A DNA stretch of 51,607 nucleotides from Nitrospira sp. SB0677_bin_15 (GCA_009842645.1 VYFB01000085.1:1-51607); one strand, 5' to 3'. Positions 3,240-15,280 are shown, counted from the stretch's first letter. Numbers and translations: made by a program. The notes: generated by a model not told the origin, from the sequence alone.

Positions 3240-4066
3240 TGCAGGACCTGCACCTGCTACCCATTTCCCGCGACCTGCGGAGCAAGACCGCGAACCTGTA
3301 TGACTTCTTTCAACGGTTGGACGGTGTCCTGGTCGCATTTTCCGGTGGCGTGGACAGTACACTGGTGCTCAAAATCGCCGCGGACGTGTTAGGCGATCAA
3401 GCGATTGCCGTGACTGCTGCGTCGCCGACTCTGCCGCGCGAGGAGTTGGACGCCGTTCATCAATTGAGTGACGAAATCGGCGCGCGGCTGATCGTGGCTT
3501 CGACGAATCAACTGGATCTCGAGGCATTCGTTCGAAACGACTCGATGCGCTGCTATCATTGCAAAACCGATTTGTACCGGCTGTTGGCCCCCGTCCAACA
3601 GGATACGGGCATTGCCACCATCGTCGACGGCGCCCACGTGGACGACCTGGGCGATGACCGCCCGGGGATTCAAGCGGCCCGGGAGTTCGGGGTCCGTAGC
3701 CCGCTGGTCGAAACCGGGTTTGGCAAAACCGACGTGCGTACCCTGGCCAAAAGCCTGGGCCTCTCCAACTGGGACAAACCCGCAGCCGCGTGCCTGTCCT
3801 CCCGGATTCCGCGAGGCACGAGGATTACCCAACAGAAATTACTGCGCGTAGAACAAGCCGAACGGCTGTTGAAGGAAGAAGGGTTCAGACATGTGCGCGT
3901 GCGCGATCATGAAGGCATCGCGCGCATCGAAGTGGATCGCCACGAACTTCCAAACATGCTCGATCCCGTCAGGCGCGACCGCATCACCCGGGGCCTGAAA
4001 GCCCTCGGATTTCAGTTCGTCACGTTGGACTTGGAAGGCTACCGCCTGGGAGGAAGTGTTTCTTAG
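3239..4066 (+). CDS. larE: LarE-like ATP-dependent sulfur transferase (PP-loop)
   Basis: LarE supplies the sulfur atoms of the nickel-pincer nucleotide cofactor of lactate racemase-type enzymes. This 275-residue protein has the adenylating PP-loop SGGVDST at residues 35-41 and the family motif KPAAACLSSRIPRG. Three conserved-looking cysteines are present: Cys105 and Cys108 in RCYHCKTDLY, and Cys185 in the ACLSSR motif. In the family, Cys185 corresponds to the position used as sacrificial sulfur donor, while a CxxC plus this cysteine is associated with variants that hold a 4Fe-4S cluster. I infer the cluster-type mechanism. No larB, larC or larA lies in the window, so the client enzyme is unknown. 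It overlaps rlmN by one base. Confidence 0.88.
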   Translation: MQDLHLLPISRDLRSKTANLYDFFQRLDGVLVAFSGGVDSTLVLKIAADVLGDQAIAVTAASPTLPREELDAVHQLSDEIGARLIVASTNQLDLEAFVRNDSMRCYHCKTDLYRLLAPVQQDTGIATIVDGAHVDDLGDDRPGIQAAREFGVRSPLVETGFGKTDVRTLAKSLGLSNWDKPAAACLSSRIPRGTRITQQKLLRVEQAERLLKEEGFRHVRVRDHEGIARIEVDRHELPNMLDPVRRDRITRGLKALGFQFVTLDLEGYRLGGSVS

Positions 4067-4096
4067 TTGTAGCCGCGGCACTTATGCCGTCGTCTT

Positions 4097-4381
4097 CTAG
4101 TTTCTGGAAGACTCGAAGCTGATTCTGAGCCGAGTGCCGGTAGCCTGTGCCACTTTTCCCAATGTTCTGGTGGAGGGGTGGATGCGCCCGCCCTCAAGCC
4201 GGGCCACAACGGACTGCGTGGTTCTCATGCGCTTCGCCAGTTGGGCTTGGGTGAGCCCTGCAGCCAAGCGAGCCTCAATCAGGGAGCGGGCCAAATCGAA
4301 CTCGGGTTTAAGCTCATCAAAAGCCGTCCGATAGTCCGAATCCCGGATCCATTTCTTATGCAAATCGACGACTTTGCTCAT
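4097..4381 (-). CDS. higA: XRE-family antitoxin (HigA-like)
   Basis: A 94-residue protein with a Cro/C1 helix-turn-helix at about residues 35-90 (AGLTQAQLAKRMRTTQSVVARLEGG). The N-terminal 30 residues probably contact the toxin. It is the second gene of a toxin-first pair: its ATG overlaps the toxin stop (ATGA), the order typical of higBA modules. Expected role: neutralise the HigB-like RNase and repress the shared promoter upstream of the toxin gene. Confidence 0.88.
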   Translation of the reverse strand: MSKVVDLHKKWIRDSDYRTAFDELKPEFDLARSLIEARLAAGLTQAQLAKRMRTTQSVVARLEGGRIHPSTRTLGKVAQATGTRLRISFESSRN

Positions 4382-4704
4382 TTCAGCACCTCTCTAGCGC
4401 GTTGCAGCGCCAAGTGAATCTCTTGCCGGGGCGTCTTACGAGTCTTCTTGACAAAGACCCGCACGACCACAACCCGTCTATCTCGGACGGCGACATACAG
4501 TGCTCGCGATATTCCGTCTCTGCCATGCATTCGCATCTCCCAGATCGGGCCGGTCAAATGCTTCACATACGATGCGTCGACATGCTCAAGCCCGAACTGT
4601 GCGATCAAGTCACAGATACGTACGAACCGTGCCCGCATATCGCCGGGTAGATCGTCCAGCTCTTTATCCACGGTTGCATTCAAGGTTTCTACGGTCCAAT
4701 TCAT
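4378..4704 (-). CDS. higB: HigB-like RelE/ParE-superfamily toxin (Gp49-like)
   Basis: A 108-residue protein from the ATG that gives MNWTVETLNA; the ORF track adds 13 upstream codons that do not fit the family. The core GPIWEMRMHGRDGISRALYV followed by VVVVRVFVKKTRKTP is the Gp49/DUF891 branch of the RelE fold. Members act as ribosome-dependent or free mRNA interferases. The last bases overlap the higA start codon, so the pair is translationally coupled. The module marks the left edge of a minus-strand accessory block. Confidence 0.87.
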   Translation of the reverse strand: MNWTVETLNATVDKELDDLPGDMRARFVRICDLIAQFGLEHVDASYVKHLTGPIWEMRMHGRDGISRALYVAVRDRRVVVVRVFVKKTRKTPRQEIHLALQRAREVLK

Positions 4705-5040
4705 GCAGATCAAGGATATAGCATAGTTGATATGTTCATGCAAAGTCGATCTTTTGCACGAAACCGTCCGGCATGATCAGAAACACCCCAATCCACCGAG
4801 CCGTCTCGGTGAAAGGCTATAGAACGTGGAGCGATATCACCGAAAAAGCTTGATGTCATTTCTGTATGTGTTCACTGATTCGCTAACAATTCCCACGGAA
4901 GAACGAGCAAGCAGAACAACCTTCACCGTTCTCGCCGCCACTTGCATCAGACAGTTAAGGTCATTGGCAGCTTTCGGTTTAGCCGAAAACCCGGCTCTGT
5001 ATAGTCAGCAGCGAAGGGAGGTATGTTTAATCAAAAGATA
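4705..5040. other. Intergenic, no supported gene
   Basis: Between higB and the Hsp90-like gene. The plus-strand ORF at 4826-5044 has no recognisable family and no ribosome binding site. The region is the 5' flank of higBA and must hold its promoter, but I cannot assign boxes with confidence. Confidence 0.5.
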
Positions 5041-6648
5041 TTAATGCTGGTTACGTGTCTGATGATCGATATGGAGAATATCGCATCTCACTCCGAATCG
5101 TTTCTTTTCACTCTGCTCCGGCATGAAACTTGCCTGTATGGCTGGCGGAATCGGGATAAAAATGCGATTTTTCATGACGATGGTACAAGAGATGACCGTC
5201 CTCCCACCGGACTGATCGCTAATCAGATTGCGTGTTTGCAGATCATAATACAAGCCGAATTCTCCTGAGTGAGGCTGAAAGATAAACAGGACTTTTTGAC
5301 CGCCCCAGACGACCGATGTGCTGTGAGGTTGGAGAAAAAAGTCTCCATGTTCATCACGGATACTATCGGTTATAGCCAGAAAGCATCTGTAATTTTTGAG
5401 AGGCGGCTCGTCGTCCCCAATCGTAAGTAACTTCTTCTCGGTCTTTATGTCAAGCCGCTGGATTGGCGGCATCGGACCATACTCCAAGCCGTTTTGTTGT
5501 TCGGTTGCAGACTGGTTGTCAACGACATCGCGCATCGCGCCAGCGTTAGCAGTATCAACAACTTGATAGCTCCGTGTTACGACTTTGTTAGAGCGGTCCG
5601 CTGCCTGTTGGAAACTTAGCTTACCGCTCATATAGTCCTTCCAAAGAGATAGATGAAGCGAAACAAACTCGTCAACTCGCGTAACGATCTTTTGCAGGAG
5701 TTGCATGCTCTCAGTCGTCAACGCTTCCCGGCCTGCGGTCGGCTGGAGGAACAAGAAATCAGCAATGCCGCCAAAATCATACACCGACGCAACACTTGTA
5801 GTTGCGAGACCAAAGCCACTACGAAAAGTCCGAAGGTTGCCAGTGCTTTGGCGCAACACCATGCGGCCATCGAATGTTTGGGAACCGGATTGCATATTGC
5901 GCAAAGCAATTCGAACCTCACCGTTTAGTGCGCCCGTGAGATCTACATCTGCCTTGAAACCGCCGCCCAGATCGACGCCCTCTTCCAATACGGACCATGT
6001 TTTGGTCAGCGCTGGCACTGACTCTTCGATAGATTGGCCACTGACCTTCTGGTCATTCACATAGACAGCTATAGGCAGGAAAGCAACGAACTGCGAAATA
6101 TAGGTTTGCGCTTTGGCAACATTGACGATGTTATCCTGTTGCATGATCGCCCTGACAGTCGTGCCGGTTCTTCCCGTCGGTAACTTCTTCTCGAACCTGA
6201 TGCAGTCTTCAGTGACGGATAGTGTTGACCTATAAGCCACACAGGCCGTCCGCTCATTCGTGTGAACACTTTCAGTTTCAACATGCAACTCCTCGGCCAT
6301 GCCGAAATTGGCCATAGCCCCAATGCCAAAGGTGCCGACGACACCAGCCGCACGTGCAGCTTCGGTGTTCTTACTACTGGAACCGGCGCGCCAAAAGTGA
6401 TTGCGCAAATCCTCCCGTGACATACCAATGCCGTTATCGGCAACGCATATGCACCGAGGTTCGATGGTGACATCGATACGAGCATCGAAATTTTGCCCTT
6501 CATGTTGGCGCTGTAATATCGCATCAAAAGAGTTCTGGACGTTCTCCCGTAGCAAGGCGAAAGGTGTTGGATAAATCTGAGCCGCAAGCACTTCAATCAC
6601 GCGGCTAATTTCGACAGCGAACGGAATCCTTTCCCAAGCCTCACTCAT
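5041..6648 (-). CDS. Hsp90-like GHKL ATPase, third ORF of the metallophosphoesterase operon
   Basis: A 535-residue protein with an N-terminal GHKL ATP-binding domain. The N-box ENVQNSFDA is at residues 35-43, where Glu35 is the likely general base and Asn39 the Mg ligand. DNGIGM is at 71-76 and GTFGIGAMANFG at 105-116, with TTVRA closing the fold further on. Beyond about residue 200 it resembles the middle part of HtpG-like proteins only weakly, and it lacks a clear HtpG C-terminal dimer domain, so it is not the housekeeping chaperone. Its ATG overlaps the preceding small ORF by four bases. Hsp90-like ATPases recur in predicted bacterial conflict systems. A defence role here is inferred from the island context. 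Confidence 0.8.
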   Translation of the reverse strand: MSEAWERIPFAVEISRVIEVLAAQIYPTPFALLRENVQNSFDAILQRQHEGQNFDARIDVTIEPRCICVADNGIGMSREDLRNHFWRAGSSSKNTEAARAAGVVGTFGIGAMANFGMAEELHVETESVHTNERTACVAYRSTLSVTEDCIRFEKKLPTGRTGTTVRAIMQQDNIVNVAKAQTYISQFVAFLPIAVYVNDQKVSGQSIEESVPALTKTWSVLEEGVDLGGGFKADVDLTGALNGEVRIALRNMQSGSQTFDGRMVLRQSTGNLRTFRSGFGLATTSVASVYDFGGIADFLFLQPTAGREALTTESMQLLQKIVTRVDEFVSLHLSLWKDYMSGKLSFQQAADRSNKVVTRSYQVVDTANAGAMRDVVDNQSATEQQNGLEYGPMPPIQRLDIKTEKKLLTIGDDEPPLKNYRCFLAITDSIRDEHGDFFLQPHSTSVVWGGQKVLFIFQPHSGEFGLYYDLQTRNLISDQSGGRTVISCTIVMKNRIFIPIPPAIQASFMPEQSEKKRFGVRCDILHIDHQTRNQH

Positions 6649-6938
6649 CGTCTCATGGCCTCTTGTGTGCTCGCCCTAGTACGAAGTTCCACTTCCAACG
6701 ACTTGGGAAACTTCAATGGCAGAGAAAAACGATTCAGGGCATCAATGGCTCCGCCGAAATCATCCAACTGGGAAAACGCATTGAACCGCTGCACTAGCTC
6801 ACTAATCGTCGCCGGTGGGTCCGTTACTTTCAAGATGCCGTCCCAATACTGTACCTCGGTTGCAGCCTTCAGATAAAGCTCGCGCTCATAGCTACCAGAA
6901 GGAAGGTCTAGTGCGCCAAGGAGAGTGATAGCTTCCAT
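6645..6938 (-). CDS. Small ORF, probably the C-terminal part of the metallophosphoesterase protein in another frame
   Basis: A 97-residue ORF (MEAITLLGALDLPSG...) with no recognised domain; it looks mostly helical. It begins immediately after a run of nine G bases (minus strand) in which the upstream metallophosphoesterase ORF passes into a short out-of-frame tail. Adding one G would join the two reading frames as ...AARGGGAPMEAITLL..., giving one protein of about 500 residues. Alternatively the G-run acts as a Shine-Dalgarno for this ATG and it is a separate subunit. Its stop overlaps the start of the Hsp90-like gene (ATGA). Confidence 0.6.
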   Translation of the reverse strand: MEAITLLGALDLPSGSYERELYLKAATEVQYWDGILKVTDPPATISELVQRFNAFSQLDDFGGAIDALNRFSLPLKFPKSLEVELRTRASTQEAMRR

Positions 6939-8128
6939 AGGTGCACCCCCCCCCTAGCTGCCACTTCCGCTTCATCGATGAGTTCGCGTCTTCGTCGGGC
7001 TTGAGTATTGATCACTGCTCCTACTGCATTGCGTGGCGGCGTCCAACTTAACTCTGCAAAACTCGCCCCACCAAGCTCCGTGAACTGCCCGCGCGAAAAT
7101 AGGTTCGCAACAATCATTGCCCTAACATGGACTCGAACCCTACAAAAATCTTCGGCTATTTCCAGAACATTGTACTGGCATGGAGTGCCCATCGGGAGTT
7201 CCTCGACACCAGCACATAGCGATCCTGCACTGACGACTGCCATTGTCTCACGGTCGGGCAGACAAATTTTTTGAGGCGTTACCTGCGCCCTATGCTGGTG
7301 GCCATGTAATCCTAGTCGGAATCCGCGGCCAATCATGCCGCGAACGACATCCACATCCATATAATCAGTACGATAGGGTGAGCCTTCAATGCTGTGATGC
7401 CAAACAGCCATACGCAAGTCATACATCTTTCCCGAATCATTCTGATCGAGATAGCTACGAGCCACGCTCTCTCGCCGAATCATGCCGTGAAATGCAAAGC
7501 AGTCATTGCCGTGACGTGAACTGTAAGCAGCAACTCCTATTCGATCGTTGCAGAGGCTGAAAAGGCGAACATCAGAAGGATTCTGTCCGGCGAGTAGACC
7601 AGACACACCTTCATAAAATCTGTCGAAAAATGTCCAGAAAGCGTTCATGCGCTTTTCATAGAGTTTAGGATCGGCAATGCGATACAAAGTACGGGTCTTC
7701 CAGGCCCAGCGAAATATAGCGTCCTTGGCATACAGCTTGGCTCTAAGATCGGTGGGAATATCTTTGACCTCAATGCTTTCAAGAGCACTCCGTGCCGTAT
7801 TCCAGTCAACATCATGATTGCCGGGAACCATGATAAGGCGAGACCTGTCACCTTCTAGGAAGCGCCCGACAAGCTCATCGAGAAATTCTTCTGCAACTTC
7901 ATACTGCTCATTAAGCTCAGTGGCGAAATTGTCCGTATTGAGAGGAATTCCCTGGATGATATCGCCGCTGACGACGATGGCTTCCGGAACCGCTATGGAA
8001 GGATCTTCATGAATGTAGCGGTCCCGGTCTTTTACGAGAGCAGAGATTAACTCACCATTGGAGATCGGAGCACCGGGCGAGCGATGGAGGTCAGATATGT
8101 GCAAAATGGAGAATGGTTTTGTGGTCAT
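6908..8128 (-). CDS. Calcineurin-like metallophosphoesterase (candidate defence operon, first gene)
   Basis: A 406-residue protein with all core motifs of the superfamily in order: HISDLH at residues 10-15, SGDI at 54-57, PGNHDVDW at 101-108, and LHGHQHRA near 275. These bind two metals and hydrolyse phosphoesters, either nucleic acid or nucleotide. The start is well supported: GGGGGAGAGG lies just upstream of the ATG. The last 12 or so residues (VHLWKLSLSLAH) follow a 9-G homopolymer and are probably an out-of-frame tail; see the 6645-6938 ORF. The operon order is phosphoesterase, small ORF, Hsp90-like ATPase, all overlapping. The substrate is unknown. Confidence 0.85.
   Translation of the reverse strand: MTTKPFSILHISDLHRSPGAPISNGELISALVKDRDRYIHEDPSIAVPEAIVVSGDIIQGIPLNTDNFATELNEQYEVAEEFLDELVGRFLEGDRSRLIMVPGNHDVDWNTARSALESIEVKDIPTDLRAKLYAKDAIFRWAWKTRTLYRIADPKLYEKRMNAFWTFFDRFYEGVSGLLAGQNPSDVRLFSLCNDRIGVAAYSSRHGNDCFAFHGMIRRESVARSYLDQNDSGKMYDLRMAVWHHSIEGSPYRTDYMDVDVVRGMIGRGFRLGLHGHQHRAQVTPQKICLPDRETMAVVSAGSLCAGVEELPMGTPCQYNVLEIAEDFCRVRVHVRAMIVANLFSRGQFTELGGASFAELSWTPPRNAVGAVINTQARRRRELIDEAEVAARGGVHLWKLSLSLAH
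6947..6955 (-). repeat. Homopolymer G9 tract at the frame junction
   Basis: Nine C bases on the plus strand (CACCCCCCCCCTAG), G9 in the sense of the genes. The tract sits exactly where the metallophosphoesterase ORF and the downstream 97-residue ORF change frame. Such tracts are prone to slipped-strand change, to transcriptional slippage and to sequencing error. Confidence 0.85.
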
Positions 8129-8329
8129 AACCTCTCCCCCAAATTAGATCCAGATCGAGCGTGAGGAAGTGGTCGTGTGGACCTGCTCCAGAAGTTGGTC
8201 CAGCTTCTATGCGATTTTTCTGGCCTCATGAGCCTGGCGCGCGAAGGCTCTCGGCGTCAAATTGAGTCAAGCTCCTAATCCGCGGTCGTATTGAGAGTTT
8301 CTGCGGCCCAATTTATACATCACGTGAAA

Positions 8330-9571
8330 CTACCTCCAGCGTGCTCTTACATCGAACTCAATCAATTCTTTCTTGGAGTTCCGTTTTCTGATGGGAATAC
8401 ATTTCACGTTGGAAAATCCGAGTTGTGACAACATTTCAGCATACACCCGCTCGACAGGGACGAGAACACTGTAGAACGTGGAGTTGCCGACGATATAGTG
8501 AAGCTTTGCACCATCGTTGAGTACATCGATTAGTGATTGAAAATGACTCCACATATCATCGAAATATTTCAACACGTAGTTTGCCAGAAGGGGGCCATTC
8601 TTGTTCTCACCGCCTCTGATTATCTTTGCCGTTTTTTGTAGAAGCTTCGATTTGAAACTGTTTGACTTGGGCTGCCACTCATTTAATCTGCTGGTAGCAA
8701 CGCCCCATGTTCCGCCAATCGCTTCCCAGTCCATTTCTCCCGCATCGCGACCATTCGTGATATATCCGAGCCAGTACATGTAGGGGCGAAGTTCACGAAT
8801 GTATGACATTCGGTTCACATACGGTGGAGAAGTAATGACGCAATCAATCAACCCAATGTCTTTCTTCAAAAGCCGCCGGGCGTCAGCGAGTGCGACTTTT
8901 CCTTGACCCGTTGGATTCTGTTCCGCTCCATCAAGAATGATGTCCAAATATCTGAGAAATATTCTTCTTAGATCAGTGTCGAAATCAAAAGTGATTTGGG
9001 AATTTGATTTGAAAGACATCGATTGGTGATTAAAAGCAGCATTGGAAAGATCAAGCAGCGTCCGACAAAACGCAATTAAGAGCAAAGAGCGTCGCTTGTC
9101 GTTATTGGTAAATCTGGCATCTATGGCTCCCTTTAATGCACAAAGAAAATCCCGGTCGACAGGGCTCCACCACCGCTCGATATTGTGTATGTGTGGGACT
9201 AGAACTTTTGGTGCTCTTTCATAGCGAATGTCGTCGCATATCGCATGGCCGACCTGTCTCAAATCAGCAATCAACTGTGAGGGATAAAAGTCGATCTTGG
9301 TGCGACTGAACCAAACCAAAAAAGGATTGATGTCTATCGTGACCGCAGTCTGGCCGTGGTAGGCCGCACAAAGAGCTGTTGTCCCGGTCCCGCAGAAAGG
9401 ATCGAGGACATTGACCTCGGAGAGATCGCTGTAGGTATCAAGAATTTCGTTCACGATCTTGAGCGAATATGCAGGAGTTAGACGAAGCCAGCCGTAACGT
9501 CCGGATTTGGCGTTATGCGTCTGTGTGTAGTCCGCCCTTTGGGTCAGTGAACGTCGAAGCGTTTCGGTCAT
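8330..9571 (-). CDS. DNA methyltransferase (N4-cytosine/N6-adenine class) of a type II R-M system
   Basis: A 413-residue protein from the ATG of MTETLRRSLT, which lies two bases after the endonuclease stop. The SAM-binding motif DPFCGTGT is at residues 57-64 and the catalytic motif TSPPY at 247-251. Motif I therefore precedes motif IV, with about 180 residues between them where target recognition could lie. SPPY marks amino-methyltransferases that act on N4 of cytosine or N6 of adenine. The ORF track extends 77 codons upstream into the endonuclease gene in another frame; that extension is spurious. Because the partner nuclease looks broken, this may now act as a solitary methylase. Recognition sequence not predictable by eye. 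Confidence 0.88.
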   Translation of the reverse strand: MTETLRRSLTQRADYTQTHNAKSGRYGWLRLTPAYSLKIVNEILDTYSDLSEVNVLDPFCGTGTTALCAAYHGQTAVTIDINPFLVWFSRTKIDFYPSQLIADLRQVGHAICDDIRYERAPKVLVPHIHNIERWWSPVDRDFLCALKGAIDARFTNNDKRRSLLLIAFCRTLLDLSNAAFNHQSMSFKSNSQITFDFDTDLRRIFLRYLDIILDGAEQNPTGQGKVALADARRLLKKDIGLIDCVITSPPYVNRMSYIRELRPYMYWLGYITNGRDAGEMDWEAIGGTWGVATSRLNEWQPKSNSFKSKLLQKTAKIIRGGENKNGPLLANYVLKYFDDMWSHFQSLIDVLNDGAKLHYIVGNSTFYSVLVPVERVYAEMLSQLGFSNVKCIPIRKRNSKKELIEFDVRARWR

Positions 9572-9573
9572 GC

Positions 9574-10292
9574 CTATGGCTCCAAAAGCCTCCTGAGTAC
9601 GGAATCGACTTCCTTCTTCAGTGCCTCCTGATTTCGGCTGAAAAACGCCGCCAAGTCGTAACCGACGACATCTTTTAGGAAGTCGTAGGTCGATAGCAGC
9701 GGCTCGGAAGTTCCAATTACGCCGGTGATGACTGCCCATTTCTCTGCCCGGTAGCGCAGCAAGATGTCCGAGTCGATCTGTGTGGAGAGGATGACGGCAC
9801 AAGGCAGGTAAGCTTTTGTATAGGCCGTCGCAGCATTCGCAATATCAGCATTCTGCCGCTTGGAATCTTTGCTCTTGCAGCCCTGACGAACTTCAAAAAC
9901 CGCACTCTTCAACGTTGAGAATACATCAGAATCGACCTGTATAAGACGTGCTGAATCTTTCATCCATTGACGAAAACGCCTGCGAGTGGCCTTGTCTTTA
10001 ATTTTGTCCAAGGGCACTCTCCCATCAAGGTGAGTTTTCTAATCCTACCATCAGCCGTGTGTACTTCATACGACCAGCTAGAATCCTCCACAGAAAGGCC
10101 GAGGCAGTCCTGTAAGATGGTACGAAACAACTTCTCACAACCAATTCCAATCTGTCTATACACACTCGTCATACCGCCAGACGCCTTATGGGCAGTGTAC
10201 ATCAGCGGGTTATCAAGACCAAACCAGCAGTAGAAAGGGTCGTTCCGGTAAAGACTTTGGAATTTTTTCAGAGACAACCCGCCCGGGTGCAA
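9574..10292 (-). pseudogene. Type II restriction endonuclease, split by a one-base frameshift
   Basis: Two overlapping minus-strand ORFs make one nuclease. The N-terminal part (from about 10292, TTG start, ending ...TADGRIRKLTL) and the C-terminal part (DGRVPLDKIKDKATRRRF... to 9574) join smoothly if one G is added at TTGATGGG (about 10023-10030). The C-terminal part carries a PD-(D/E)xK-like segment, FEVRQGCKSKDSKRQNADI. The repaired protein would have about 235 residues. The gene sits directly upstream of its methyltransferase, with a two-base spacer. Either the nuclease is dead or the base was lost in sequencing. Start uncertain, since a stop lies a few codons upstream. Confidence 0.7.
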
Positions 10293-10374
10293 TTGGCGGA
10301 TGGGTTTTCACCGCAACGGCACGGCAGGGTCCGGAGCCCCCGACACGCGCGCTCGATGAAACAATTGCAGGGAG

Positions 10375-12608: not shown

Positions 12609-15002
12609 TCAGAAAGTCCAGCGCCAGCCTGACAACAAGGTCAAGGCCGGGCCTGCCGTGACACGGTGCCCAGGCTGGTGCGTGGCCACGGCACCCAAGC
12701 GCCACTCACCCACGGCCAGGGGCTGATACCAATGCGCGGCCACGTCGAGCTGCCGACCGCTCGGCGCCAACTGGGCCGTTACCGGAATGCTTACCACCTC
12801 CCCAGCCTTGGTTCGGCCCACGGGCACCATGAGCGCAGCGTGCCCTTGCTCGACGCGCAAGGGTTGTGAGACGGAAAAACGCAACAGACCTGCACCGGCG
12901 ACCCGGCGACTCACATGCAGCGTGAATGCGCTGGTGGTCAGGGACGAAAAGTCGTTGATCACGCCACCCCGCGCAGTCGGACTGACAGTCCCACTCTCCG
13001 CAGTGGCCCCCATGTGCCAGCCACCGAGCACCGCCTCCGCCTCGATCCCGACAAACGTGGTCCCGGCCGCCAAGCCGCCGAACGCACCTCGGGCCGTCCC
13101 GCCCAAGAGGGTCTGCCGTTCCCCAAGCCAGCCGGCACGCAGGCCCAGCGGGAAGCCGCTCGGCCACCAAGCCAGCGTTGCACCAGTGGTCGGCATCTGC
13201 CCGAACACCCCCTCCGTGGTGAAGGCGGAAGCGGTCAGGCTGGACCGAGGAGCCATGATCAGCGTCAGGGTGCGTTCATTCAGCGCCAAATGACTGACCC
13301 GGGCTCCTGCGGTTCTCGCCGCCAACCCCAGTTGCCACGGCACGGCCGCAGTGTCACGGCCAGGGCGAAACGCACTGCCCGTCAAGTCAATGCCTTGCGT
13401 CGAGGTGCCCCACGAATCCGTCGCCAGGAAATCCTGCAGCCGGCCCGTGGTCGACGGCCCGGGAGCGACCGTGGCGAATCCTCCGAGGTCGAACCAGAAC
13501 GGGGCACCCAGCCGATCGAAGGCCACAAATTCCCGGCCGGCAAAGGAGCGTTGGATTCCGTCACCGAATGCCACGCCCAGCCGCATCCCGCTCGTGCGCA
13601 AGTCGAGGCCCGGGCCGTCGACCTGGGTGTCGGGCACGACCTCCAGCACCCCTACGGGCGAGGTGGCTGCCTTGAGGTCCATTTTGCCCCGGCCGTAGAC
13701 GCTCCGGTTCGAGTACACGCCAGTGTTGTCGGCGGTGTCCAGCAACCGCGTAACCAGCGCCGTATTTGAAAGTTGATCGCGGAAAAGTTGTTTCATAATC
13801 GCCAATCCGCCCGATACCATGGGCGCAGCGTAAGAAGTCCCGCTGCCTCTCGCCGTCCCCCGGGCTCCGTCCTGACCTTCATGGGGTCCGTAGTAGGCTA
13901 ACCGTATCTGTTCACCGGGAGCCGCAAGGCAATAGTCAGCGGCAATACCGCAACGATTGGAAAAGCTGGCGATGGACGCGTCACTCGATCGCAGCGCCAC
14001 CACGGCGAGGGAATGGCCACGAAGTTCCGCAATGCGCGCGGCCAACCCGGGCATCACCTCCACGGAGACCGCATTGACCGTTCCATTTTCGCATTGCGCG
14101 ACCATGGCCGGGTCACAGGGGTCTCCGTGGGCATTGCCCGCGGCCCAGATCAGGACCGTCTTCTCACTGACGCCCGCTTGCGCCATGGCGGCGATGGCCG
14201 TGCCGAAATTGTTGCGCAGGTCCTGTTCGCTGTAGGAATTGATAATTCCGTTGAAGCCGACGCTCAGGTTCAGGAAGTCCACGGCCTGCTGGTTGGCCCG
14301 CCACGTGCGAACGGAATTGATCAGGCTTGCCCAACTGGAGTCCTGACCGGCTAGCCCGGTGAGTGAGATCGGACTGTACTGGCCACTCCCCGATCCGGCA
14401 GAGATCGCGAACATGGCGATGTCGGCGCCCCAAGCCACTCCATTCGCGGAAGAAGTCAGGGCCCCAGCTCGCAGGCCGGCTGCCACGCTCGCAACCGCGG
14501 TGCCATGAGAAAACAGATCGCTCGTCTCATCGGTCCCGGTGTCCACGAACACCTCGTTGATCGTCTTACCGGCGAACTGTGGATGGCCCGTATCGATGCC
14601 GGTGTCGATGAACCCGATGGTCACTCCGGCGCCAGGGTTGGCATCGCTTCCCTTGAGCAATTTCACGTGGGCATACGCCCAGTCGGCGTTGATCGTGCGC
14701 AAACCCCATTGATTGACAAAGCTCGGATCGTTAGTACGGAACTCCTGAGCAAGCCCCAACGCCTCGTTTTGAAAATCAGCACCTGACAAACAATTCCCTC
14801 CGTCGGTCCGGATACAGGGAGAGGGTGGTGGTAATGCCGGTGGTGGTGGATCGATCACAGGGTCGGGCGCGGGGGCAGACGGCTCCGGCGAAGGCGGCTC
14901 CGGACCTGTTATCACACTTCCGCCACCACCCCCACCACAGCCAGTGAGCACCATGAATACCGAAAGCACGGTGACGGACACGAACGTTGGCTTGCAGATC
15001 AC
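12609..15002 (-). CDS. Subtilisin-family (S8) serine protease, lipoprotein autotransporter-like
   Basis: A 797-residue protein from a GTG preceded by AAGGA. The signal peptide KPTFVSVTVLSVFMVLTGCG ends in a lipobox (LTGC). A Gly run and a long Pro-rich linker (PEPPSPEPSAPAPDP) follow. The S8 catalytic motifs are all present: GFIDTGIDTGHP (Asp), SHGTAVASVAAG (His) and GTSYAAPMVSGG (Ser). The last 280 residues have alternating strands and end in WRWTF, the terminal aromatic residue of an outer-membrane beta barrel. The plan resembles surface proteases such as NalP and SphB1, which are lipidated, autotransported and process other surface proteins. The track N-terminus (48 extra codons) is partly repeat DNA and is not used. 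Confidence 0.85.
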   Translation of the reverse strand: MICKPTFVSVTVLSVFMVLTGCGGGGGGSVITGPEPPSPEPSAPAPDPVIDPPPPALPPPSPCIRTDGGNCLSGADFQNEALGLAQEFRTNDPSFVNQWGLRTINADWAYAHVKLLKGSDANPGAGVTIGFIDTGIDTGHPQFAGKTINEVFVDTGTDETSDLFSHGTAVASVAAGLRAGALTSSANGVAWGADIAMFAISAGSGSGQYSPISLTGLAGQDSSWASLINSVRTWRANQQAVDFLNLSVGFNGIINSYSEQDLRNNFGTAIAAMAQAGVSEKTVLIWAAGNAHGDPCDPAMVAQCENGTVNAVSVEVMPGLAARIAELRGHSLAVVALRSSDASIASFSNRCGIAADYCLAAPGEQIRLAYYGPHEGQDGARGTARGSGTSYAAPMVSGGLAIMKQLFRDQLSNTALVTRLLDTADNTGVYSNRSVYGRGKMDLKAATSPVGVLEVVPDTQVDGPGLDLRTSGMRLGVAFGDGIQRSFAGREFVAFDRLGAPFWFDLGGFATVAPGPSTTGRLQDFLATDSWGTSTQGIDLTGSAFRPGRDTAAVPWQLGLAARTAGARVSHLALNERTLTLIMAPRSSLTASAFTTEGVFGQMPTTGATLAWWPSGFPLGLRAGWLGERQTLLGGTARGAFGGLAAGTTFVGIEAEAVLGGWHMGATAESGTVSPTARGGVINDFSSLTTSAFTLHVSRRVAGAGLLRFSVSQPLRVEQGHAALMVPVGRTKAGEVVSIPVTAQLAPSGRQLDVAAHWYQPLAVGEWRLGAVATHQPGHRVTAGPALTLLSGWRWTF

Positions 15003-15108
15003 GTTTTCCTTTTTCAATCCTGGCCCGTGGGTATGTTCACTCTTCCTGAGCGGTGCTGCAACCCCGGCACTTGCCTCCATGAAATCCAAACCGGCAAGGG
15101 GTTCCTTT

Positions 15109-15280
15109 AGGAACCTCTGATCCCCGATTAAGAACGTCGAGGACATGTTTATCGCACTATCGGGCGCAGGGCTGCGTTGTGTCCTCGCTCAACCCTCACC
15201 TATCTCGATGATACGCTTCGGGTTTCGCTCCGGGACGCCTTGCCCTGCATCCCGCTATCACACTGAATCAGGGGTTCCTT
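15109..15280. mobile_element. MITE family E, copy 1
   Basis: Shares about 120 bp with copies at 18194-18337 and 51534-51607 (CACTATCGGGCGCA, TGTCCTCGCTCAACCCTCAC, CGGGACGCCTTGCCCTGCAT). The ends are GGAACCTCTGA on the left and TCAGGGGTTCC on the right, flanked on both sides by TTTA, a likely 4-bp target duplication. This copy has an extra family A-like insert (TCCCCGATTAAGAACGTCGA) just inside the left end. It lies upstream of the protease gene. Confidence 0.8.

Follow-up and report, generated by a model that had tools for sequence, protein, structure and literature searches.

The locus studied here raises the question of whether a run of nine G bases, located at a break in the reading frame of a metallophosphoesterase (MPE), serves to turn a two-gene defence system on and off, as had been proposed in an initial annotation. 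The window, that is, the whole stretch of DNA that was analysed, comprises 51,607 nucleotides from Nitrospira sp. SB0677_bin_15, and coordinates refer to it unless another locus is named.

Operon layout

The three overlapping minus-strand open reading frames that had been described were recovered, together with the nine G bases at the junction of the first two. The features of the operon are as follows:

6908-8128, minus strand: MPE frame, 406 residues, of which about 394 are homologous to relatives and the final 12 are out of frame
6946-6954, minus strand: G9 tract (C9 on the plus strand); it marks the frame break and falls in a turn predicted between tail helices one and two
6645-6938, minus strand: frame of 97 residues, corresponding to the TPR-like C-terminal tail of the MPE, here out of frame (identity to the homologue L017, profile, model helices)
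5041-6648, minus strand: Hsp90-like (GHKL) ATPase, 535 residues (HATPase_c_3, PRK14083, identity to L017)
5647-5652, minus strand: approximate junction of an in-frame internal deletion in the ATPase, between ...DEFVSLHL and SLWKDYMSGK

With nine G bases, the MPE frame ends in the 12 residues VHLWKLSLSLAH, and the 97-residue frame is open from just ahead of the tract. The ATPase was indeed found to be the next gene and to share an ATGA with the tail, its start overlapping the tail stop.

Relatives of the operon

At all nine related loci where both genes could be seen, a single frame encodes the MPE together with its tail, directly upstream of the ATPase. The closest relative is a Latescibacterota MAG (L017), with an ATPase of 771 residues, 74% identical to that of the window. 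The others are conjugative plasmids of P. aeruginosa (L018) and Rhizobium (L019, whose MPE forms one open frame despite lacking annotation as a single gene), three IMG/VR contigs (L044-L046), a genome of the same order (G105, locus L079) and two more distant relatives (L020 in G013, a genome of the same genus, and L080 in G228). The fused MPE has 482-498 residues in seven of these and 596-608 in two, and the ATPase 753-781. At seven of the eight homologue junctions inspected the two genes overlap, usually at an ATGA; in L044 they abut.

Homologues that carry the 97-residue part fused in one frame, for which the initial annotation had suggested a search, were thus found in every case. Since all nine relatives are fused, the split in the window is derived and the fused form ancestral. 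The 97-residue frame was also considered as a separate gene; this was rejected, as it is part of the fused MPE in 9/9 relatives. Neither a split MPE nor an ATPase without the internal segment was found among the relatives compared. Among phage sequences, no relative of the window MPE was detected, and the ATPase matches were short domain ones only. In another genome (G467, L082:2751-5649), a more distant Hsp90-like ATPase of 716 residues follows a 256-residue gene that is not an MPE, an arrangement that suggests partner exchange.

The phosphoesterase and its tail

The MPE frame matches Pfam Metallophos (E 6.6e-9) and is 66% identical to residues 1-394 of the L017 MPE, and the 97-residue frame is 49% identical to residues 393-493. 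In relatives, a single uninterrupted protein aligns with both frames, and at the level of homology the frame break is therefore genuine. The 97-residue part alone scores 25 bits against the fused-MPE profile. The metal-binding motifs DLH, GD, GNHD, HH and GHQH (GHxH) are all intact in the window; an otherwise invariant cysteine, at position 205, is replaced by arginine.

A structure model of the L017 MPE (mean pLDDT 69.6) matches SMPDL3A with Z ~20 and an rmsd of 3.6-3.7 Å over ~280 aligned residues. Other likenesses were to acid sphingomyelinase, Lmo2642 and Rv0805, with YydB of B. subtilis (an integrative model entry) ranking first; a sequence search of the PDB using the MPE profile returned no match. 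The tail forms TPR-like helices in the model, and its Foldseek matches are TPR proteins. The G9 tract maps to a predicted turn between the helices at residues 375-392 and 396-404. An MPE with a fused TPR-like tail is a trait of the family as defined from the nine relatives; the window has the tail, but out of frame.

The ATPase and its internal deletion

The window ATPase matches HATPase_c_3 (E 4.1e-11) and the HSP90 family model PRK14083 (E 3.8e-26). The Bergerat motifs ENxQNxxDA, DNGIGM and GxFGIG, which form conserved alignment columns, are retained, as is a PTAGRE motif that we read as corresponding to the catalytic arginine loop of Hsp90.

A second lesion, absent from the initial annotation, was found in this gene. 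Adjacency to the MPE and the ATGA overlap are kept, but at 535 residues the protein falls below the ~750-780 of its relatives, and every full-length homologue (~770) exceeds it by about 236 residues. The profile match is split accordingly, with 5647-6648 aligning to model positions 1-335 and 5059-5649 to positions 574-774, so that the missing segment corresponds to about residues 334-571. A further gap, of four residues and later in the protein, distinguishes the window from close relatives. As a check for misassembly, the missing segment was searched for in the rest of the genome and was not found, in a search without a positive control.

An AlphaFold2 model of the L017 ATPase (six sequences, mean pLDDT 74, pTM 0.53) is of moderate quality, and the domain borders taken from it are approximate. 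Its residues 11-537 follow the N, M and C domains of Hsp90, aligning with residues 106-698 of TRAP1 (Z ~20, rmsd 8-10 Å, 437-460 aligned), and the N-terminal and large middle parts alone (11-357) give Z 21.1 with an rmsd of 3.5 Å over 288 residues. On this model, the window ATPase would keep approximately the N-terminal ATPase domain, the large middle domain and the C-terminal extension, and would lack the small middle and C-terminal dimerisation parts.

The genomic neighbourhood

The operon lies in a region whose content varies within the genus:

4060-10374: variable defence slot, from a larE-like gene to the ATP-synthase region, recognised from an empty site in relatives
8330-9802, minus strand: DNA methyltransferase (N6_N4_Mtase and type II MTase models; the limits are those of the open reading frame)
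4097-4743, minus strand: HTH antitoxin-like gene (4097-4381, HTH_3, E 8e-12) and Gp49/HigB-like toxin gene (4378-4743, Gp49, E 2e-23)

The slot was compared at loci including L100, L101, L103 and L106. In G001, the equivalents of positions 4059 and 10375 are only 11 bases apart, which constitutes the empty site; the slot is empty in four genomes of the genus (G001, G004, G005 and G010). In G011 no similarity was found between these positions, and ~2.4 kb of other DNA is present. The same methyltransferase is present in G012 and G013, where an Abi_alpha gene (PF14337, E 6.5e-21 for the G013 copy, the one tested) takes the place of the MPE and ATPase. G006 has DNA similar to the toxin-antitoxin pair of the window, along with an integrase-like gene and a gene with a P-loop-like motif.

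The methyltransferase DNA has counterparts of 86-89% identity at this site in G013 and G012, and the true start of the gene probably lies inside the open reading frame, the gene of the relatives encoding 413 residues. The methyltransferase was rejected as a member of the operon, because it remains in G012 and G013 alongside Abi_alpha without the MPE and ATPase. The toxin-antitoxin pair adjoins the operon on the side opposite the methyltransferase, and similar DNA occurs in G006. Elsewhere, the operon copy of G105 is placed between hsdS and hsdR, and nSTAND3, ABC-3C and GmrSD genes neighbour other copies or remnants.

The slot is a high-turnover defence setting. Concerning the proposal of a switchable two-gene defence system, its defence half gained from the fused pair at nine loci, from the hsdS/hsdR context and from a slot that is empty or filled with Abi_alpha or other cargo. 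The pair of TPR-tailed MPE and Hsp90-like ATPase is thus a well-supported candidate anti-phage system, its putative function resting on conservation and context. Beside the hotspot, a subtilase of 845 residues (Peptidase_S8) was observed at 12609-15146; genomes of the same genus share both of its flanks and have almost no similar DNA there.

Comparison with known systems and proposed mechanism

No description of an MPE and Hsp90-like pair was found in the open-licence literature, and none of the defence models searched matched the intact operon. Two anti-phage systems are the nearest comparisons for the MPE. DS-8 has been reported to be homologous to SMPDL3A; the first gene of DS-9 carries a metallophosphatase domain homologous to that of DS-8, and defence by either system is abolished in catalytic mutants (PMC13092281). 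The two systems show that anti-phage defence can depend on an MPE of this sort as its essential enzyme. The window MPE shares with them the calcineurin-like metallophosphatase domain, intact metal motifs and the SMPDL3A fold. The NCBIfam model of the first DS-9 gene, NF053862, matches its residues 6-310 with E 1.1e-14 and 54 bits, far under the cut-off of 420. In DS-9, however, the partner is a HAD phosphatase instead of an Hsp90-like ATPase, and in DS-8 the MPE is fused to a NACHT domain, which is lacking in the window MPE and its homologues. The TPR-like tail sets the family apart from both.

A TPR-bearing metal-dependent phosphatase that works with an Hsp90 ATPase is known in eukaryotes (PPP5C/PPH-5). 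PP5 is held inactive by its own TPR domain, an auto-inhibition that Hsp90 binding relieves, and contacts are made at the interface of the Hsp90 middle and C-terminal domains (PMC4655416). PP5 belongs to another phosphoesterase subfamily, however, and its TPR is N-terminal, whereas that of the present family is C-terminal. The MEEVD motif at the Hsp90 C-terminus, bound by the TPR in PP5-Hsp90, is absent from the ATPase C-termini of eight relatives. The resemblance lies in the parts, and the two are not homologous systems.

With HtpG, TRAP1 and Hsp90, the operon ATPase shares the fold of the N-terminal ATPase and middle regions; intact relatives also have a part like the C-domain. It differs from them in its C-terminal extension of ~230 residues, its ~14% identity and its pairing with an MPE in the close clade; the window copy differs further in lacking the small middle and C-terminal domains. 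The BbrUII/HgiDII type II restriction enzymes (NF050001) likewise have an N-terminal Hsp90-like ATPase domain (E 1.4e-9), and a methyltransferase gene adjoins the operon here. The match is, however, confined to residues 16-131, and the methyltransferase persists in relatives with no MPE/ATPase at the slot.

From these likenesses a mechanism may be proposed. In the intact family, the phosphoesterase, calcineurin-like and with a TPR-like tail at its C-terminus, would be co-translated with an Hsp90-like ATPase. The ATPase would most likely be a dimeric clamp, driven by nucleotide, whose task is to sense or bind a cue of infection and, via the TPR tail, to dock and release the phosphoesterase or to activate it; the phosphoesterase would then cleave a nucleotide signal or nucleic acid. 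In the window, the MPE would have lost its TPR tail through a changed length of the G run (G7 or G10 would keep the frame, G9 does not), and the ATPase its small middle and dimerisation region by the in-frame deletion. If this coupling is correct, both lesions strike it, which suits a broken and an uncoupled copy alike; the TPR coupling in the family and the loss of function in the window copy are both conjectural.

A more specific reading may be put forward, though it is rather unlikely: the intact family would be a bacterial immune module resembling PP5-Hsp90, in which an ATPase clamp controls a TPR-tailed, SMPDL3A-like phosphodiesterase acting on a nucleotide signal or nucleic acid, and the window would hold a version uncoupled by nature, without either of the coupling parts. 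If the intact pair is an immune system, it would contribute an Hsp90-type ATPase as the regulator of a defence phosphoesterase and offer a counterpart in bacteria to PP5, a phosphatase under chaperone control. The natural lesions point to the TPR tail and the Hsp90 dimerisation part as candidate coupling segments.

The G tract

The run at 6946-6954 is the only homopolymer of at least eight bases in the whole 51.6-kb window. In the genome of 2.55 Mb, ~16 distinct tracts of G9 or longer were found, or ~0.3 per 51.6 kb, so that one in the window is unsurprising and one within this 3.1-kb operon is about a 2% event at the genome density. One extra G fuses the two frames, as had been stated (494 residues), but this is not the only repair, since removing two bases fuses them as well (493 residues). 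When the window MPE was scored at different tract lengths against a profile of seven close MPE homologues, 491.2 bits were obtained with G7, 488.0 with G4, 486.8 with G10 and 451.3 with G9. Both in-frame alternatives, G7 and G10, yield the full conserved protein over the whole profile. Judged by sequence, G7 suits the relatives slightly better than G10: it aligns without gaps at R-x-G-x-P-x-x-A, where L017 has K-T-G-K-P-E-R-A and L018 R-S-G-E-P-S-A-A.

The proposed switch would work by slippage in the tract: at G7 or G10 the fused MPE would be made, at G9 it would not, and the population would thereby hedge its defence. Nine G bases fall within the slippage range known from other bacteria, and defence genes are plausible contingency loci. 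Moreover, the tract sits exactly at an intragenic frame break, the two frames together make up the ancestral protein, and constraint still acts on both genes. Several observations argue against this proposal. A G run at the equivalent position is absent in all seven close homologues. The other tracts of G9 or longer in the genome lie mostly outside genes or long frames, or are in frame; few are intragenic, and a few cases with overlapping frames were flagged by a simple test. The window tract is the clearest gene-breaking one in the genome, and no clear genome-wide tendency of G tracts to disrupt coding regions was found among the ~16. In addition, the ATPase deletion looks irreversible and cannot be switched. 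The on/off switch is consequently considered unlikely. When it comes from a single draft genome, a homopolymer located where two frames join is only weak evidence of phase variation, and the finding is of more interest as a gene family than as a switch.

The G count rests on a single draft assembly of 156 contigs, and the true tract might be in frame, with the MPE intact. The assembly carries poly-G artefacts, as indicated by a run of ~48 G bases beside N's in contig C153 (14997-15044; L043, source genome G000), itself probably an assembly or sequencing artefact, and the MPE shows no decay besides the tract. On the other hand, another G9 of the same assembly, in a gene named mreB-like by motif (context IVLTGGGALLRG), reads in frame, so nine-base runs can be read correctly. 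A length error would also leave the ATPase deletion unexplained, and the missing piece was not found elsewhere in the genome. Such an error is given a low probability. A fixed recent break and an assembly length error are each at least as likely as a switch.

State of the window copy

In order to estimate the age of the lesions, differences from outgroup-majority residues were counted in the window and in L017, giving 18:13 for the MPE (p 0.47) and 6:13 for the ATPase (p 0.17). Neither window gene is evolving faster than its closest relative, and there is no decay beyond the two lesions. This absence of accelerated change implies that any break is recent, or that the parts still work. An old pseudogene under relaxed selection receives no support from the relative rate; in pairwise dN/dS with L017, synonymous sites are for the most part saturated. 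Within the MPE, conservation is lowest in the tail in all pairs (identity 0.12-0.48, against 0.28-0.66 for the body), and the lower identity of the tail is for this reason no sign of decay.

That the parts still work is the basis of another explanation, in which translation of the tail begins independently at 6938, the G run being a candidate ribosome-binding site, or the tail arises by slippage on the G9, and the shortened ATPase is functional in a remodelled form. The tail frame has a possible independent ATG at 6938, with the G-rich stretch ~8 nt upstream, the ATPase deletion is in frame and roughly at Hsp90 domain borders, and the Bergerat and PTAGRE motifs are kept. Against it, the MPE is unsplit and the ATPase segment present in all relatives compared, and bacterial slippage is best documented on A and T runs, the kind studied in PMC1088944. 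A working variant of this kind seems very unlikely.

The reading that we prefer, and to which we would give an even chance, is that the window operon is a recently broken or uncoupled copy of a candidate anti-phage system, residing in a fast-turnover slot and having no dedicated switch. Some observations fit it less well: the ATPase deletion is in frame, which would occur by chance in 1 in 3 cases, and falls roughly at domain borders; neither a stop codon nor a lost catalytic motif is seen, and both genes still look constrained; and with a single draft assembly, the G count may be wrong. A stub (~100 residues) of a second MPE was found at another site, in contig C41 of the source genome (L111:2848-3153) and in G011 (L115:1544-1870). 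It follows a Fic gene, precedes a GmrSD-type gene in the source genome and is common to two species of the genus, which indicates that such genes are being lost in the genus.
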